Positions 13,191 through 57,652 of a DNA stretch of 58,849 bases are shown one piece after another. Made by a program: the position numbers and the translations under genes. The stretch lies in contig JALGVE010000010.1 in NCBI GenBank assembly GCA_029820045.1, positions 1-58,849 of the forward strand, written 5' to 3'. The number at the start of each line of letters is the position of its first letter. Within the stretch, counting starts at the first letter, position 1. This stretch comes from Candidatus Zipacnadia bacterium (GTDB lineage Bacteria > Armatimonadota > Zipacnadia > Zipacnadales > UBA5352). Below the pieces are notes generated by a model. That model was not told the DNA's origin. It saw only the letters and a list, made by a program, of their open reading frames with translations, and searched no databases.

Positions 13191-13219
13191 GTGGGCAGCG
13201 CAGATCGCGCGCTGCCCAC
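13191..13219. repeat. Hairpin GTGGGCAGCGC/GCGCTGCCCAC (11-bp stem, 7-nt loop)
   Basis: Perfect inverted repeat 27 nt after a stop codon; shares GGGCAGCGC/GCGCTGCCC with the outer stem of the element at 51207-51400. Confidence 0.7.
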
Positions 13220-13597: not shown

Positions 13598-15604
13598 ATG
13601 AGCAAGGCGCAAAGCATGATCCTGGGAACCCTCATACTGGTAGGGCTGCTGGCGGCAACCTATGTCGCACTAGGCCGCATGGTGGTGGAGAACACGAACC
13701 GGACGGTCGGCCTGGCGGTTGACTACGCAGAGGTGGAGAGGCTGGCCGCGGCGACGGCCACGGCGCCGGTCAGCGTGCTCCAGCGTCTTCAGGAGGCAGG
13801 CGCAACTCACCTGGCGGTCAGCGAGGATGACCTGCAGACCTTGCTCGGCCGGGGGCAGGTCGCGATGTTTGCCAAGGGCAACACCGTCGAGATCTGGTTC
13901 GCCTCGGCCAAGCGGCTGCACCAGGCAGCCGAGGCCCTCAGCAACAAGTTGCCCGGCGAGTACGCCGAGCGGGAGACGGAGGACGGCGACAGAGTGCTGG
14001 AGGCGCCGTTTGCCGCAACCTCCGTGCCGAATGTGGGTGTCGGCTATCCGCCCGAGGCGCTTGAGGCCGCTCGCAAGCTCGGACTTCACGTGGTCGCCCG
14101 ACCGCACTGGCAGGGCGTTCGCACCCCGAGAGCAGTTACCGCCACCATCGAGCAGGCGGCCGAAGCTGGCGCGCAAATCGTCGTTTTCACGGGCGATCAA
14201 GTGATCGGCCATCCTAACCTGATCGAGACCACCGCCCAGGCCCTCATGCAGAAGAAAGTAGCCTTCGGATTGATCGAGCTAGCGCCGCAGAAAGGCGCCG
14301 CGAAGCTCGCGGCCAAGCTCCACTACCGAGTCGTGCGCGTGCATAGCGTTACTGAGCCGGAGATGCACACCATCTTGCCCCAGCGCGCCGTTGAGCGTTT
14401 CGTGCGGGCCGCAAGGGAACGCGAGGTGCGGCTGCTTTACCTGAGGCTCCTGCCGGGCGCCGAGGACCAGCCGGCCAAGGCTAACGCGACCTATGTGACC
14501 GCCATCAGGGAGGGCCTCAAGGACCACGGGCTGCAGACCGGGGCGCCGCGACCGTTGGCGGACTTCGGAACGCCCCCCTGGCTCCTGGCGTTGGTCTTGT
14601 TAGGCGCATGGGGCGGCGCGCTGTGGCTCATGCAGGCCCTCTTCGGGCTACCGCCGGAGTATTTCTGGGTGCTCACGTTGCTGGCGGTTGTCGGCGGATC
14701 GGCCGGGGCCTACGTGGCCGACGACCTGGCCCGCTCGTTGGGCGCCCTGACAGCGGCCACCGTCTTCCCGCTCCTAGCCGTGCTGTACGCGGCGCAGAGC
14801 ACCACCCCCACCTCCAACTGGCGACCTCGCCTGCTCCACGCCCTGGGCCCGCTGCTAGGCGGGTTCCTCAAGGTGTCGGTCATCACCGCCTTCGGCGGGC
14901 TGCTGGTGGTGGGTGCGCTGGGGGACTCAAGCTACCTGGTGAAAGTCGCGCAGTTCCGCGGGGTGAAGCTGGCTCAGGTCATTCCTCTCGCGGTTGTGGC
15001 ACTGGTCTGGCTGGCGCGCTCCACCGGGGCCTACCGCAACGCAACCCCGGAGGAGGGACCTGACCTCCTGGACCGGCGTAGCGGCATCACACGGCCTGAG
15101 TGGCCGGCGCTCTGGCCCGGTCTGCGCGAGGCCTTCAGTGAGTTCGTCGCCTACTGGCACGTGGCCGCCGCCGTGGTGGGGCTGGCGCTTCTAGGGCTGC
15201 TCATCGTGCGTTCGGGCAACGAAGCGGCCGGTGCTATTCTCCCCGGCGAGCTTCAGTTCCGGGCCTTGCTGGACAAGCTCCTCGTGGTGCGGCCGCGCAC
15301 CAAGGAGGTCTTCCTCGGGCACCCGGTTATGATACTCACTCTGCTGCTCGCGCTGCGGGGCGCGCGTCGGGGCCTGTGGGTCGGGTTCGCGCTTGGCACC
15401 ATCGGACAGATCTCGATTCTCAACTCATGCTGCCATCTGCACACACCGCTGCTGCTGACACTGGTCCGCATCTTCAACGGTCTCTGGTTGGGCGCGCTTG
15501 CCGGGATCGTTCTGTGCACCATCTGGGACCTGCTGAAGCTCCCGCCGCGGCCGGACCGAGCCGCCGAGCCAGCGATGCCGCCCGATGATGAGGACCAGGG
15601 ATGA
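13598..15604 (+). CDS. DUF5693-like multi-TM protein
   Basis: 668 aa with periplasmic domain and multiple TM helices, overlapping csaB by 4 nt; this arrangement is familiar for DUF5693-CsaB pairs. Confidence 0.65.
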
Positions 15605-16683
15605 CAATAGCCCTCTCAGGATACTACGGGTTTGGCAACGCCGGCGACGAGGCTATCCTGGCGGCCACCCTCGCCGGCCTGCGACGGCGCTTGCCCGAAG
15701 CTCAATTCGTGGTCCTCTCCGGCAACCCGCCAGCCACTGAAGCAGAGCATCAGGTGGAGGCATACCCCCGCTGGCGGCCGGCCAGCATCTGGCGCACTGT
15801 GCGCAAGGCCGACTTGCTTGTCTCAGGCGGCGGCGGCCTGCTGCAGAACAGCACCAGCGCACGCTCACTGATGTACTACCTCACGGTGCTGAAGGCCGCC
15901 TGGTTCGCGCGCACGCCCTACGTCATTTTCGCCCAAGGAGTAGGGCCGCTGCGAGGTTGGCTCGCGCGCTGGGGCACGGCGTTCTGGGCCCGGCGCGCGG
16001 TCGCCATCACCGTGCGCGATGAGGCGTCCGTGCAGTTGCTGCAAGAGATCGGCATTCCCGTCGAGCGCATTGAGCTAACGGCTGACCCGGCTCTGACGCT
16101 CCAGCCGCCGCCACCGGAACAGGTCCAGGAGGTGCTCGGCAGCGCCGGTATCACAGAGGACCGGCCGCTGCTCGGCCTGGCGGTCAGGCAGTGGAAGGAC
16201 CAGCAGATGGCGGTTGAGGGCATGGCGGAAGCCGCCCGGCGCGCTGTGGATGAGCTGGATGTGCAACCCATCGCGCTGCCCTTTCAGCCGGCACAAGACC
16301 TCGAGGTCTGCCGCTCGCTCGCTGCGATGATCCCGGGCTGCGTGGTGCTCGACGCGCCCCTGCGGCCGGCGGAACTGATGGCAGTCGTTGGCCGCCTGGA
16401 CATGCTCCTGGCAATGCGGCTGCACGCCCTCATCTTCGCAGCAGCGCAGGCCGTGCCGGCCGTAGGCCTCGTCTATGACCCAAAGATCAGAGCATTCTGC
16501 GAGCAGGCAGGACAACCGTCGGTGGAGGCCGCCGCGCCCGCTGACCTCAGCGACGTCCTCCAGCAGGCGTGGTCCTCCCAGGCTGAGAGCACGCAGGACC
16601 GAGGCCGGCGCGCAGAGCAGCTACGAGCGCGCGCGGAGCGCAACTTCGAGGTCGTGGCGGAACTTGCCCGGGCGCTGAGGTAG
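15601..16683 (+). CDS. csaB: CsaB-like polysaccharide pyruvyl transferase
   Basis: [67 protein letters not shown]. Confidence 0.85.
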
Positions 16684-16699
16684 CGGCCGCCAACAGGCC

Positions 16700-16860
16700 C
16701 GGGCAGCACGGGGGCGGGCTTCCAGCCCGCCCCCAACGGCAAGCGCCGCCGGCGCCCTGCGAATGCAGGGCGCTGCCGGACTTCGTCCGGCCCGCAAGCC
16801 CCCAGGCTTGCGGCGGCGCTTGCCGTGCGATCCCGCTTACGCGGGATCGCGTGCTGCCCG
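16700..16860. repeat. Nested multi-branched palindromic element, copy 1
   Basis: Outer 11-bp stem 16700-16710/16850-16860; arm A 16711-16733; 15-bp stem B 16736-16750/16812-16826 enclosing hairpins 16752-16773, 16775-16791, 16792-16813; arm F 16827-16850. Almost every base is paired. Confidence 0.85.
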
Positions 16861-17103
16861 CAAGTTAGCGAAATAAGCAATACGGAGCTGGCGACGACGC
16901 AAGTAGACACCGCACGGGAGATGCGGGGTCTTCTCGGCCGGTGATTTGCCCAGTGGGCCTGCGGATAGGGAGGGGGAGCCGGCCGGCGCCCGGGATGGTA
17001 TCCCGCGCCTCCGAACGGTATTGTCGAGCGCAACCTAGTATTCGCTTGCGTAGCAAAGCGTCAGGTCGCACAAGGACGTCCGTATGATGGAGCGGCCGCC
17101 TGA

Positions 17104-17257
17104 GCGCGTCTGTCGCGCGCGCAGACGCCGCGTCTGCGCGAGACGCGCGAAGCCGGCCCGCCGTATGCGCTAAGGGCCGAGTTCGGCCCTTCGGGCCTCA
17201 CGCGGCCCTCCCAACGACTCGGACCGGTCCCGCTCAGCGGGCGGGACGATGTCCCGC
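17104..17257. repeat. Cluster of GC-rich hairpins
   Basis: Nested GCGCGTCT[...CGCGCAGACG-CCG-CGTCTGCGCG]AGACGCGC (17104-17148), GGGCCGA-GT-TCGGCCC (17174-17189), CCCGC-TCA-GCGGG (17229-17241), GCGGGAC-GAT-GTCCCGC (17241-17257). Confidence 0.6.
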
Positions 17258-24762: not shown

Positions 24763-24840
24763 GTAGGTCGGGCTTTCTAGCCCGACTCATCAGTCGTTTC
24801 CCCGGCGGTCAATAGACTCGGGCTAGAAAGCGCGACCTAC
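24763..24840. repeat. REPIN-like pair of inverted GTAG-hairpin elements
   Basis: GTAG-GTCGGGCT-TTCT-AGCCCGAC (24763-24786) and inverted GTAG-GTCGCGCT-TTCT-AGCCCGAG ending at 24840. Confidence 0.7.
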
Positions 24841-44942: not shown

Positions 44943-44968
44943 GTAGGGCGGGCTTTCCAGCCCGACTC
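44943..44968. repeat. GTAG-hairpin (REP-like) element
   Basis: GTAG-GGCGGGCT-TTCC-AGCCCGAC. Confidence 0.5.
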
Positions 44969-46417: not shown

Positions 46418-46530
46418 CGGCAAACGGCATGAGCTAGCACCGCCGAGACGCTGAGGGCGCAGAGAACGGCTATCAAGGGAGCGTTGCTGTGAGGCTACGA
46501 AGAGGGCTGATGGAAGGAGTCGGGACCGAT

Positions 46531-49500
46531 ATGCGCAGATGGATGACCGTCACAATCGCAGCTTTGCTGGTGGCATCGGTGTACGCTCAGGAGGAGGCGC
46601 CGAGAGTGTTGCTCTTCGGCCAGGGCGGGTTCACAGCTCAGGCGCTTGACGCGCTTGGTGTCAGGTACGACACCGCCACGTGGGCCGACTACGCGGCGAG
46701 CCGAGTCAACATATTCAACTACGAGGTCGGCATCAGCGGAATGGACGTTGACCGCCGACGACTGGCCGATGACCCGGAACGGCTGCTGGCCTTCGTGGAG
46801 AGCGGCGGCGTCTTTGTGGGCATGCGATACAACCATGAGGACCTCTGGCTGCCCTCGCCGGTCAAGCGGGACAAGGCCTACGAGTTCGGTGAGGTCCTGG
46901 CTCCTGACCACCCCATCTTCAACACGCCGCACCGCCTCAGCCGCGACGTGATGGCCCGCGTGCATAGCGGCAGCATTTACGACGCCTTCTATGACCTGGG
47001 CGAGGGCTGGGCGCCACTGGTAAGCACGGGCGCGGAGCAGGGCTGGGACGAGCGCGAGGCGCAGAGCAAGGGGCCGCATTACGGGATCATCAAGCTGAAG
47101 TACGGCAAGGGGCGGATCATCCTGTGTCAGATGATTCCCACCTACGCTTGGTTCAACGACAACGGCGGCGAGGACTGCGAGGGGAAGCTGCTCTTCGAGA
47201 ACATGCTTGCCTACGTGCAGTCCATCGCGCCCCACTGGCCGCAAGCAGGGAGGGCGAGCGTAATGCCCGACAGCTACTACGAGCGCTTGAGCGAGCTGCT
47301 GCCAGAGCCGACCGCCGGCGGGAGCCTGCCGCTTGATGAGGAGGGCTGGCGGTTCGAGAGCAGCGGCGACTTCACCGGTAAGGCGGACCGGCGCTACGTG
47401 TTCACCATCTCATATCCGGACGAGCCCTCAAAGGCGGGCGGCTTCGGGCGGGTGCAGAGAAAGGTCAAGCTCACCAACGCCGAGGGCGGCTGCTACCTGA
47501 GGTTCTATGTCTCCGACGACTACTGCGGCGGCTGGGACCGAGAGTTCGAGGGCGACCGCTCGGTCGGCAAGACCGAGAACCGCAAGAGGGATATGCGGTT
47601 CGCTGAAGTACTCGTGGACGGCAAGCGCGTCTGGGAGACCGACGTGCTTGGCATGAACCCGCGGCCCGCAAGGGATCGCTTCTACGTGGCGGACATCTCT
47701 CGGCAGGCGCGCGGCAAGGATGAGGTAACCATCACGCTCCAGGTCTCGGACCGGCAGGGCAGCGGCGAGGCGCCCTTCGCAACCGAGGTGTTCTGGGCGG
47801 GCGTGGAACTGTTCGAGGGTGTGCAGCAGTTGGACCTGCGGACCGCAAGGGCAAAAGGATTCGTGCCCGACGAAGAGTGCGTCCGTCTGCAAGACGAGGC
47901 GGAAAACGGCACGCTGGCGCGCAGGTTCACAGGCAAGACCGGCGACTACTACGCTGCCATCAACCTGCGCGATGAGCATACCGGGCAGTCCGAGCTGTCG
48001 CTTAGCGTGGGTGGCAGGGAGATGGGCCGGGTCAAGCTCACCGCCGATGACTACGGCTGGCACTGGGCCCGCCTGGGGCCGAGCCGCATCGAAGAAGGCG
48101 CGGAGATAGAGTTGCGCTGCCGGCGCGAGGGCGAGGAGCAGGTGCGCCTCCGCGAGATGGTGCTTCTGCCGAAGGAGCTGGTCGAACGCAGGCCGGCGCG
48201 GCCACCGCTCGCCATCAGGAAGCCGTGCTACCAACCCGGTCCCGAGTCCCGTCGCGAGAGCTTTGCAGCGCGCGTGCAGGAGAACGCAGGCGTACCCCGC
48301 GAGGGCGAGGTCGCCAGCCACGGCATGCCCTTCGCCCACGGCGCGCTGAAGTCGGTAGAGAACATCCGCGTGCTGTCGCCGACCGGACAAGAGGCGCCCA
48401 GGCAGGTGCGTCAGCTTGCCGCCTGGCCCGACGGGTCAGTCATGTTCGCGCTGGTTACCTTTCCGGCCTCAGTCGGCGCGGGCGAGACCGCCGAGTACCG
48501 CGTCGAGTACGGCTCCCAGGTGCAAGCAAGCGCGCAGCCGACGCAGCCTGTCAGCGTGGCTGAGAAGGGTGACGAGATTGTCATCAACACAGGCCCGCTG
48601 ACGGCCACGCTCAGCAAGGTCATGGGGACGGTCTTCGACTCGGCAGTGCTCGACGGCAAGGAGATGGTGGCGGGCGGCCAGCCTTGGACAGCGCTGGTCA
48701 CGACCGAGGACGGGAAGACATACTCCTCCGCGAGCGGCTCGGTGACAAAGGTGCAGATACTGGAGAGCGGACCGCTGCGCGCCATCGTGCGGCGCATCGG
48801 CAGGCACCAGGGGGATGATGGCTCGACGCTGCTGGAGTACGAAATAATCCAGGAGTTCTACGCCGGCAGTCCGATGACACGGCTGCGGTACTACTTCACG
48901 CATAGGGAGAACAGCGACACCGAGAAGATCCGGCAGGTTCGCCTGCAACTGCCGACGCCGTGGGCGTCGGGCAACGGCGCGCGGTCCCTGGTTTGGCTCG
49001 ACGGCGACAAGATGGCGGAGAGCGCGGGCGGCGTGAGCGTCAACCAGCATGACCTCGACGTGGCCACGGTGACCACCGGTGGGGAGGTCTCGGAGGCCGG
49101 GCGCACGCGCGGCTGGGCGCGACTGAGCGCGGACGGTGGACTGTCGGTCGCCACCCGCTGGTGGTGGGAGAAGTTCCCCAAGGCCGTCGAGGTTGGGCCG
49201 GACGGGATCGCGCTTGACCTGATCCCGCGGGATAGTCACACGCTCTTCAGCGATGGGCCCTTCGCGCTGCACCAGGGGGAGTGCATCGGGCACGAGATTC
49301 TCGTAAGCTTCGAGAGGCCGGGCAGCGAGCCGGAGTCCACGGACGTGTTCCGCGCGTTCCAGGACCGTCTGCTGCCCACGCCCGATCCGCAGTACGCCTC
49401 CACCACCATGGCTCTCGGGGAGGTGGCGCCGCACAACGAGTTGATGTTCCCCGACTATGAGGCGGGGATTAAGAGGCTTTACGACGGCTACCTCGCCAAG

Positions 49501-51186
49501 CGTGAGCAGCGCAAGGAATACGGGATGGAGAACTTCGGGGACGATACCTTTGAGTGGGGCTACGGGCCGAGTTACACCTTCTGGAGCAATCAGGAGTACG
49601 ACCACCACCACGGGTTCCTGATGGAGTACCTGCGCTCGGGGGATCGGCGTTACTTCGAGATAGGCGAGCAGGCGGCCCGGCACCACCGGGACGTTGACTG
49701 CATTCATGGGGCGCCCGGGCGGGAGTATGTCCTGGGCTCACCCCACCACCACAACAGCAAGCACCTGGTGGAGGAGGGCTGGTTCCCGGATCACTGCCTG
49801 CGCCCATCCGACGTCACCCACGCCTGGGTCGAGGGCCTGCTGACGTACTGGATGCTGACCGGCGATGTCCGGGCGGAGGAAACCGCGAAGCAGATGGGCG
49901 ACTGGTTCGTGTGGTGCGTGAAGAATGACCACTACGGGGCAGGCGGCCAGGAGCGCGGCCCGGGCTGGACGTTGATTGCACTGTCCGCCCTGTACCGGAT
50001 AACCGGCGACGAACGCTTCAAGCAGGCCGGCGATACTATCCTCGACTGGATGGAGGATATCCAGGACCCGGTGCGCGGCGTCATCAGCGTGCCCATCTCG
50101 GAGCAGCCCAGCTACGAAGGCGGGACCGCCTTCATGCACGGCATTGTCGGGCGCGGCCTGGGCAGGTTCTACGAGGCCACCGGCGAGCGGCGCGCCATGC
50201 GCATGTGCCTGGGGATCGGCGAGTGGCTGACCACCGAGCCGATGGGCCCGCCCGCGAGGTTCTGGTACAAGCAAGCGCCGAGCTGTAAGCACGGCTACGG
50301 CGCTACCTCGCAGTGTCTGAGCGCGCTGAGCTACCCCTACCGTTATACCGGCGACGAGTGGTTCGCGGAGATGAGCGAGGCATTGCTGGCGCAGACGCGC
50401 CCAAGTGTGCGGAGCGTGGCGTGGGCTTACACCACGCTCGCCCACCTCGCCCCACGCCTCACACCCCTGCGCCTTGATCTCCCGAGGGAGCCGCTGGCGG
50501 TTGCACCGGCAACGCCGGGCGAGGTGTCCCTGCACCTGACCAACACAAGTGCGGGACCGGTCGAGGCACGCATACGTGCGGCAGCCGCTCAAGGGCTGGC
50601 GCTGAGCGCGCAGCCCCCGCTCGTCAAGCTGCCCAGCGGCGAGACCGCGGAAGTCAAGCTTACCATCAGCGCTAACCCCCAAGCCGTCGGCAAGACGGTT
50701 GACCTCACCCTCCAAGTAGTGAGCGGGGAACGGACACAGGAGAGGACCTTGCGCGTCAGGGCCATCAAGGAGCTGGTGCGCAAGACGCTGGGCGTGGAGC
50801 AGGCGCAACTGACCTCACCGTTCGTCCTCTCCGAGGAGGACGGCAAGAAGTACGCGCATGTGCCTCGGGAAGCTCGCTTCAACCCCGATCCGTGGGCCGT
50901 GCAGGACGAGGCCGGCGCAGTAACCTGGCAAGTCACCCTGCCGACGCGAGGTGAGTACTCCCTCCTCGCGGACTGCTACTGGCTGGACGACAAGGGCAAC
51001 TCCTTCTACGCTGCCGTGGATGACGGTAAACCAACGGAGTTCGGGAACGACTCCCGCCTCGAGCAGTGGCATTCGGTGCGTGGGGAGGCCTACCAGCTCG
51101 AAGCCGGTACGCATACCATCTCACTCCGCAGCCGTGAGGACGGCGCCCGCGTGCGGGCCATCACGCTCACGAATATGCCGCAGTAG
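46531..51186 (+). CDS. PcRGLX/YetA-like (exo-rhamnogalacturonan lyase-like) large secreted protein
   Basis: Signal peptide MRRWMTVTIAALLVASVYAQ; RIFT-like region and (a/a) barrel with FGDDTFEWGYGPSYTFWSNQEYDHHHGFLMEYLRSGDRRYFEIGEQAARHHRDVD. Confidence 0.7.
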   Translation: MRRWMTVTIAALLVASVYAQEEAPRVLLFGQGGFTAQALDALGVRYDTATWADYAASRVNIFNYEVGISGMDVDRRRLADDPERLLAFVESGGVFVGMRYNHEDLWLPSPVKRDKAYEFGEVLAPDHPIFNTPHRLSRDVMARVHSGSIYDAFYDLGEGWAPLVSTGAEQGWDEREAQSKGPHYGIIKLKYGKGRIILCQMIPTYAWFNDNGGEDCEGKLLFENMLAYVQSIAPHWPQAGRASVMPDSYYERLSELLPEPTAGGSLPLDEEGWRFESSGDFTGKADRRYVFTISYPDEPSKAGGFGRVQRKVKLTNAEGGCYLRFYVSDDYCGGWDREFEGDRSVGKTENRKRDMRFAEVLVDGKRVWETDVLGMNPRPARDRFYVADISRQARGKDEVTITLQVSDRQGSGEAPFATEVFWAGVELFEGVQQLDLRTARAKGFVPDEECVRLQDEAENGTLARRFTGKTGDYYAAINLRDEHTGQSELSLSVGGREMGRVKLTADDYGWHWARLGPSRIEEGAEIELRCRREGEEQVRLREMVLLPKELVERRPARPPLAIRKPCYQPGPESRRESFAARVQENAGVPREGEVASHGMPFAHGALKSVENIRVLSPTGQEAPRQVRQLAAWPDGSVMFALVTFPASVGAGETAEYRVEYGSQVQASAQPTQPVSVAEKGDEIVINTGPLTATLSKVMGTVFDSAVLDGKEMVAGGQPWTALVTTEDGKTYSSASGSVTKVQILESGPLRAIVRRIGRHQGDDGSTLLEYEIIQEFYAGSPMTRLRYYFTHRENSDTEKIRQVRLQLPTPWASGNGARSLVWLDGDKMAESAGGVSVNQHDLDVATVTTGGEVSEAGRTRGWARLSADGGLSVATRWWWEKFPKAVEVGPDGIALDLIPRDSHTLFSDGPFALHQGECIGHEILVSFERPGSEPESTDVFRAFQDRLLPTPDPQYASTTMALGEVAPHNELMFPDYEAGIKRLYDGYLAKREQRKEYGMENFGDDTFEWGYGPSYTFWSNQEYDHHHGFLMEYLRSGDRRYFEIGEQAARHHRDVDCIHGAPGREYVLGSPHHHNSKHLVEEGWFPDHCLRPSDVTHAWVEGLLTYWMLTGDVRAEETAKQMGDWFVWCVKNDHYGAGGQERGPGWTLIALSALYRITGDERFKQAGDTILDWMEDIQDPVRGVISVPISEQPSYEGGTAFMHGIVGRGLGRFYEATGERRAMRMCLGIGEWLTTEPMGPPARFWYKQAPSCKHGYGATSQCLSALSYPYRYTGDEWFAEMSEALLAQTRPSVRSVAWAYTTLAHLAPRLTPLRLDLPREPLAVAPATPGEVSLHLTNTSAGPVEARIRAAAAQGLALSAQPPLVKLPSGETAEVKLTISANPQAVGKTVDLTLQVVSGERTQERTLRVRAIKELVRKTLGVEQAQLTSPFVLSEEDGKKYAHVPREARFNPDPWAVQDEAGAVTWQVTLPTRGEYSLLADCYWLDDKGNSFYAAVDDGKPTEFGNDSRLEQWHSVRGEAYQLEAGTHTISLRSREDGARVRAITLTNMPQ

Positions 51187-51206: not shown

Positions 51207-51400
51207 CGGGCAGCGCCGGGGTCGGCGTGGCATCAGCCGCGCCGACCCCGAAGCGCAGCGATGGCAGGCGATCCCGCAACCGCGGGATCGCCGACGCGCA
51301 CAGGCTCAGCCGCACCTCCTGCGGCTGAGCCTGTGCGCGTCCCGGCCCCAGGCCGGTGCCATCGCTGCGTTGTGCGCGCTTCGCGCGCACGCGCTGCCCG
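51207..51400. repeat. Nested multi-branched palindromic element, copy 2
   Basis: Outer 10-bp stem 51207-51216/51391-51400; arm A 51217-51250; 13-bp stem B 51254-51266/51357-51369 enclosing hairpins 51267-51292, 51293-51341 (perfect 22 bp), 51342-51356; arm F 51372-51390. Confidence 0.85.
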
Positions 51401-57306: not shown

Positions 57307-57331
57307 GTAGGACAGGTGCCCTCACCTGTCC
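57307..57331 (+). repeat. GTAG-hairpin element
   Basis: GTAG overlapping GGACAGGTG-CCCT-CACCTGTCC (9-bp perfect stem). Confidence 0.6.
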
Positions 57332-57354
57332 CGGCTGCTCGCCCGGCGATGCCT

Positions 57355-57568
57355 CGGACAGACGAGGCGTCTGTCCTACTACCCGACAGACGAGGCGTCT
57401 GCCCTACTACGCGACAGACGAGGCGTCTGTCCTACTACGCGACAGACGAGGCCTCTGTCCTACTACGCGACAGACGAGGCGTCTGTCCTACTACGCGACA
57501 GACGAGGCCTCTGTCCTACTACGCGACAGACGAGGCCTCTGTCCTACTACGCGACAGACGAGGCCTCT
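57355..57568 (-). repeat. 28-bp tandem array (7 full + 1 partial units) of hairpin units
   Basis: Unit GCGACAGACGAGGCGTCTGTCCTACTAC; minus strand reads GTAGTAG-GACAGACG-CCT-CGTCTGTC. Confidence 0.95.
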
Positions 57569-57652
57569 CCCAGGTGAACAGTTACACTCAGCGCGACAAG
57601 GGGGGAGCCGAGCGAACCCGGCTCCCCCTTTGCCTGTACTGTGAAGCTGATC

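Follow-up and report, generated by a model that had tools for sequence, protein, structure and literature searches.

What kind of element is the palindromic tract that follows a csaB-like gene in this 58,849-nt stretch of DNA (the whole of which is referred to here as the window)? An initial annotation, made from the letters alone, described a nested multi-arm palindrome behind the stop codon and proposed three identities for it: a structured RNA, an element transposed as single-stranded DNA, or a recombination or cruciform site. We examined the fold, the relatives, the placement and the mode of pairing of this element in the window's genome (G000; 2.6 Mb, 173 contigs, 60% complete) and in related genomes.

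Architecture of the two elements in the window

Folding of positions 16695-16865 yielded -149.5 kcal/mol on the plus strand (z -11.75) and -150 kcal/mol on the minus strand (z -11.3), values that no shuffle matched, while the element itself (copy 1) folded with DNA parameters at -94.6 kcal/mol (z -14.3). Thus the nested palindrome is real. The upstream gene product matches PF04230, which fits CsaB. The features at this locus are as follows:

15601-16683, plus strand: upstream gene, polysaccharide pyruvyl transferase (CsaB-like; PF04230, 2.6e-44), ending 16 nt before copy 1
16700-16860, unstranded: copy 1, whole nested double cross (RNA and DNA folds)
16700-16709, unstranded: outer stem P1, 5' arm CGGGCAGCAC, 10 bp (this and the following parts from the helix list)
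16710-16734, unstranded: arm A hairpin, 11 bp
16736-16750, unstranded: inner stem P3, 5' arm, 15 bp
16751-16774, unstranded: inner hairpin B, 10 bp
16775-16791, unstranded: inner hairpin C, 7 bp
16794-16811, unstranded: inner hairpin D, 7 bp
16812-16826, unstranded: inner stem P3, 3' arm, 15 bp
16827-16850, unstranded: arm F hairpin, 10 bp
16851-16860, unstranded: outer stem P1, 3' arm GTGCTGCCCG

The layout is that of two four-way junctions, one within the other. Pairing is nearly complete, as first described: 140 of the 161 nt are paired and every hairpin loop is 3-4 nt long. The 15-bp stem enclosing three hairpins and the arms A and F of the initial annotation were all recovered in the helix list; the outer stem, there given as 11 bp, measures 10 bp.

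A second copy had also been claimed, and it is present with the same architecture:

46489-51186, plus strand: gene for a 1565-aa PcRGLX-like protein, ending 20 nt before copy 2
51207-51400, unstranded: copy 2, nested double cross of the same layout

Its helices (10, 15, 15, 11, 22, 6 and 8 bp) repeat the architecture of copy 1 in largely different sequence. Individual parts travel more widely: the GCGATCCCGC arm of copy 1 arm F recurs in copy 2 and at three other loci (L047, L085 and L088), at other positions in the element, and the GGGCGGGCTTCCAGCCCGCCC core of arm A is found too as solo hairpins of the GTAG-type REPs. REPs are single hairpins of 20-40 bp in which an unpaired GTAG/CGTC foot stands on a 5-13 bp hairpin (PMC3733652).

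Further perfect GC-rich palindromes lie at 17118-17140 and 17172-17191, within the 1 kb of intergenic DNA that follows copy 1. A hairpin on its own (GTGGGCAGCGC/GCGCTGCCCAC), nearly the same as the crosses' outer stem, stands at 13191-13219, 27 nt past a stop codon.

A family of nested and single crosses

Genome searches, together with 0.51 Mb of sampled stretches, on which the counts rest, gave 11 nested double crosses and two single crosses (an outer stem plus three hairpins) in G000, and four single crosses in G005, which belongs to a different genus of the same family. Eight further copies, of which seven are nested and one is single, came from a search of G000 with GGGCAGC..GCTGCCC; a covariance model brought two further nested copies with other outer stems in G000 and one copy in G005, and more were added by a structural scan and a second covariance model. 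Thus the nested stems, whose absence from other copies would have counted against the initial description, recur in the 11 nested elements of G000, but not in the two single crosses there or the four in G005.

Across copies the outer stem is 8-12 bp long and mostly CGGGCAGCG/CGCTGCCCG, the element measures 113-198 nt, and the P1 core CAGCG is the sole sequence common to nearly all copies. The middle arm exceeds the others in single crosses, at 19-27 bp. In nested crosses a second cross stands in place of that arm, and its own middle arm is usually 21-23 bp: hairpin C is of this length in nine of the 11 nested copies, as against 7 bp in copy 1.

The cross detector returned zero crosses on 474 kb of dinucleotide-shuffled window, and the structural scan found none in ~0.9 Mb sampled from eight further members of the family. 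Models R1 and R2 matched nothing in the order and phylum sets, but with limited recall (copy 2 escaped R1 in the genome-wide search, and R2 failed to recover the G000 single crosses and one of those in G005), so that absence elsewhere is not established by this result. Larger third-order crosses did not appear in 0.5 Mb searched with outer-stem gaps of up to 460 nt. Three other candidate forms were rejected: three-way-junction intermediates, which were mere fragments of known crosses; solo outer-stem hairpins as a zeroth-order form, whose number in the genome (five, vs five for a control pattern) is that of chance, save for the well-placed one at 13191; and matches to the loose pattern CAGCGCC..CGCGCTG, which were noise. 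Among 16 further CGGGCAGCG sites in 0.5 Mb of G000, 14 fell within called genes and one beside a cross.

No Rfam family scored above its gathering threshold (the best sub-threshold score of copy 1 was 19.2 bits against a cut-off of 42), and no named nested-cross family was found in the open-access literature, in agreement with the first impression that this shape has no name. The crosses are therefore a real, previously unnamed variant of the bacterial dispersed palindromic repeat, in which the recursive architecture is unusual.

Two local variations were also seen. At L088:4483 and L047:2083 the outer stem is preceded, at a distance of 13-16 nt, by an extra GGGCAGCG that forms a direct repeat with it. 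L051:11045-11193 and L087:4370-4521 share an additional upstream tract found at no other copies in the genome, which consists of a purine-rich stretch (GGTGGAGGTGGAAGGTGAGCGGGGAGGG) and a hairpin and extends up to ~140 nt.

Crosses lie mostly at the 3' ends of genes

With genes called by a simple codon-usage caller and sampled stretches partly picked for holding crosses or REPs, 14 of 17 crosses lay within 43 nt of a gene 3' end, as compared with 8.9% of random intergenic blocks (binomial P about 1e-12) and with six of 29 intergenic GTAG-type REPs in G000 (Fisher P 6e-5). A stable hairpin shortly after the stop codon, as in an intrinsic terminator, is therefore the usual situation of a cross. 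Ordinary 3' ends of G000 and G005 have perfect, GC-rich single hairpins of at least 9 bp, in most cases lacking a U-tract, between +4 and +57 nt, and such hairpins occurred at 21 of 173 3' ends in G000 vs two of 320 mid-gene positions (counts that include a few crosses). No U-tract follows the crosses (T is 0.235 in the first 12 nt vs a background of 0.17); U-tracts are rare after ordinary 3' hairpins here too, so a U-less class of terminator stays compatible with the crosses. Thus the initial judgement that the element is far more complex than a terminator holds for its shape, but a role in termination is suggested by where it lies and by the ordinary hairpins found at the same place after other genes.

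In three convergent gene pairs a cross nearly fills the gap, leaving 17-18 nt on either side at L047, 28 and 11 nt at G5a, and less than 10 nt on either side at G5b. Codirectional sites are as frequent as convergent ones. The cross at L087 is 72 nt from the nearest gene 3' end. L089:14422-14601 is the sole cross flanked by divergent genes, whose starts are about 100 nt and 170 nt away.

Our leading explanation, held with moderate confidence, is that the crosses are dispersed palindromic repeats that probably act as bidirectional, U-tract-less terminators, and whose arms may be kept perfect by template switching.

Dispersal and mobility

The chief rival to the terminator reading is mobility, with gene ends as the targets; both can hold together. 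Here the crosses would be non-autonomous, MITE- or REP-like elements moved in trans by a postulated recombinase with specificity for the folded cross and a preference for terminator hairpins or the 3' ends of genes; an effect on termination would then be a by-product. We regard this as possible but not the likelier outcome. Several observations suit it: i) L050b and L051 are 86% identical across their full 176 nt, in opposite orientation and between unrelated flanks, so that a cross has been copied as a unit with exact ends; ii) the distribution is patchy, with crosses neither at csaB orthologues nor in the ~0.9 Mb sampled from sister genera, as would suit a mobile element more than an essential part; iii) Y1_Tnp transposase genes, the kind (RAYT) that accompanies GTAG REPs and is flanked by them, occur in both host genomes (four matches in G000; the four Y1 loci checked were read for GTAG hairpins only).

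Against it, Y1 genes are found just as well in three sampled relatives that gave no cross, and no larger autonomous copy was seen. No target-site duplication flanks the crosses (mean best flank match 2.12 nt vs 2.09 nt in the control) and no GTAG/CGTC tag is shared at the outer-stem foot or in the flanks of the 16 copies read; these features gave no signal of single-strand transposition, one of the identities first proposed. Moreover the genome's true mobile REPs are not confined to 3' ends. An ancestral element at the csaB 3' end was considered and rejected: the orthologues of G001, G004 and G005 (49-50% identity) end without a cross, but their downstream gene order differs as well, which leaves no clean empty site.

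Pairing is kept at the DNA level

Over 17 elements we counted 1211 Watson-Crick pairs, nine G·U pairs (0.7%) and nine one-by-one mismatches, in a set for which the search favors well-paired elements, while arm sequences vary from copy to copy. Since G·U pairs are no commoner than other mismatches, pairing is kept on the DNA, that is on both strands, and not on one RNA strand. Between L087 and L051, 18 pairs are altered on both sides, none is broken and none has changed to G·U; the comparison of L050b with L051 shows five double changes, one G·U and three broken pairs. Of the three proposed identities, the cruciform, a DNA-level reading, is thus the one favored.

A cruciform may serve as a chromosomal site for protein: once extruded, the cross could be the target of a nucleoid protein or of one that manages supercoiling, or could take up positive supercoils where two convergent genes meet. 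In favor of such a site are the perfectly palindromic DNA, the four-way junctions and the location at the ends of genes, many of them convergent, and REPs have been reported to bind proteins of this kind (PMC2817692). But convergent sites are no commoner than codirectional ones, and a protein would find nothing except the P1 CAGCG in common to nearly all copies; we consider this function improbable. A structured non-coding RNA, stand-alone or in a 3'-UTR and selected for its RNA shape, is more improbable still: the extremely stable fold, the conserved geometry and the shared upstream tract of L051 and L087, with a hairpin whose arm sequences differ between the two, would suit it, but G-U pairs are nearly absent, loops and inner blocks occur in both orientations, both strands fold equally, loop and junction sequences are not conserved, and Rfam holds no match.

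Arm rewriting and inversion

When copy 2 is aligned with L047, the outer arms A and F keep their order, while the 120-nt inner block reaches 88% identity only when inverted, vs 63% in direct orientation; the F loop reads TTC in one of the two and GAA in the other, and is thus inverted as well. Template switching between the arms of an inverted repeat is known to homogenise the arms and invert the spacer (PMC8604942), and paired changes without intermediates have been described as its product (PMC8794818). Judging from these alignments, template switching may be the cause of arm rewriting and inversion in the crosses; junction resolution or recombination could be an alternative source of the inner-block inversion, and the data fit both. 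The crosses resemble the template-switch-maintained hairpins of those reports in arm homogenisation, paired substitutions and spacer inversion. Those hairpins, however, are single stems, whereas in the crosses several levels of a nested structure appear to be involved and a 120-nt arm is inverted whole.

Comparison with known systems

Like REP, REPIN and BIME elements, the crosses are short, dispersed extragenic palindromes in many copies and both orientations. Unlike REPs, they are 113-198 nt long, form one- or two-level four-way junctions, carry no tag, and lie at gene 3' ends, where the GTAG REPs of this genome do not concentrate. Membership of the GTAG/CGTC REPs was therefore rejected, on the missing tag and the different placement. 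GTAG-tagged REP hairpins of the GTAGGGCGGGCTTCCAGCCCGCC type lie in the window at 24763-24786 and 44943-44966, about 33 are present in 0.51 Mb of G000, and several of them form inverted head-to-head pairs (REPINs). At 57310-57570, short palindromic units GACAGACGAGGCSTCTGTCCTACTACGC stand head to tail and adjoin a GGACAGGTGCCCTCACCTGTCC hairpin; hairpins of a related GGACAG type lie after other genes.

U-less terminators (PMC8355165) and hairpin-cluster terminators (PMC8269248) have been described in GC-rich bacteria. With these U-less (I-shaped) and cluster forms, some of them bidirectional, the crosses share GC-rich hairpins soon after the stop codon and the lack of a U-tract. The known forms, however, are single or tandem hairpins of unrelated sequence, whereas crosses have a common outer stem, are nested, and are related by descent between unrelated genes.

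As in MITEs, the crosses are small, non-coding and dispersed and have terminal inverted repeats (here CGGGCAGCG); unlike MITEs, they show no target duplication, no cognate insertion sequence was found in the 0.5 Mb searched for CGGGCAGCG, and they are palindromic throughout the body and not at the ends alone. Integron attC sites, CRISPR repeats and IS200/IS605 ends are defined by a single-hairpin or tag layout; this layout was not seen in the crosses, and all three were set aside.

Proposed mechanism and meaning

A cross is built of an outer stem with the core CAGCG and three perfect hairpins, the middle one longest, and in G000 a second cross mostly takes the place of the middle arm. Most crosses lie no more than ~40 nt past a stop codon, where ordinary genes have a single perfect hairpin. 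According to the terminator reading, they would act as very strong two-way U-tract-less terminators and as 3'-end barriers; pairing would be strictly Watson-Crick, since the two DNA strands would have to fold equally well. At replication, template switching in the arms would keep them perfect, give rise to paired substitutions, and flip loops and whole arms. On the other hand, a plain hairpin would be enough for termination, and the nested geometry would be left without explanation.

A more speculative proposal, which we think rather unlikely, is that the crosses represent a new class of element, in which the heritable property is the shape of the DNA (a recursive cruciform) and not its sequence. 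Arms would be rewritten and flipped as modules by template switching or junction resolution, with the dimensions kept (outer stem ~10 bp, inner stem ~15 bp, long arm ~22 bp), and the unit would be copied to the 3' ends of new genes as a two-way terminator.

The two-level four-way-junction architecture is an addition to the catalogue of bacterial dispersed palindromes. Moreover, with pair changes on both sides and almost no G·T intermediates, the crosses document arm rewriting and arm inversion in nature with unusual clarity, so that the upkeep of stems, whether by selection on shape or by template-switch correction, becomes directly testable. If two-way termination is true, the crosses would be unusually compact insulators, and would be an instance of terminators that spread as mobile parts.
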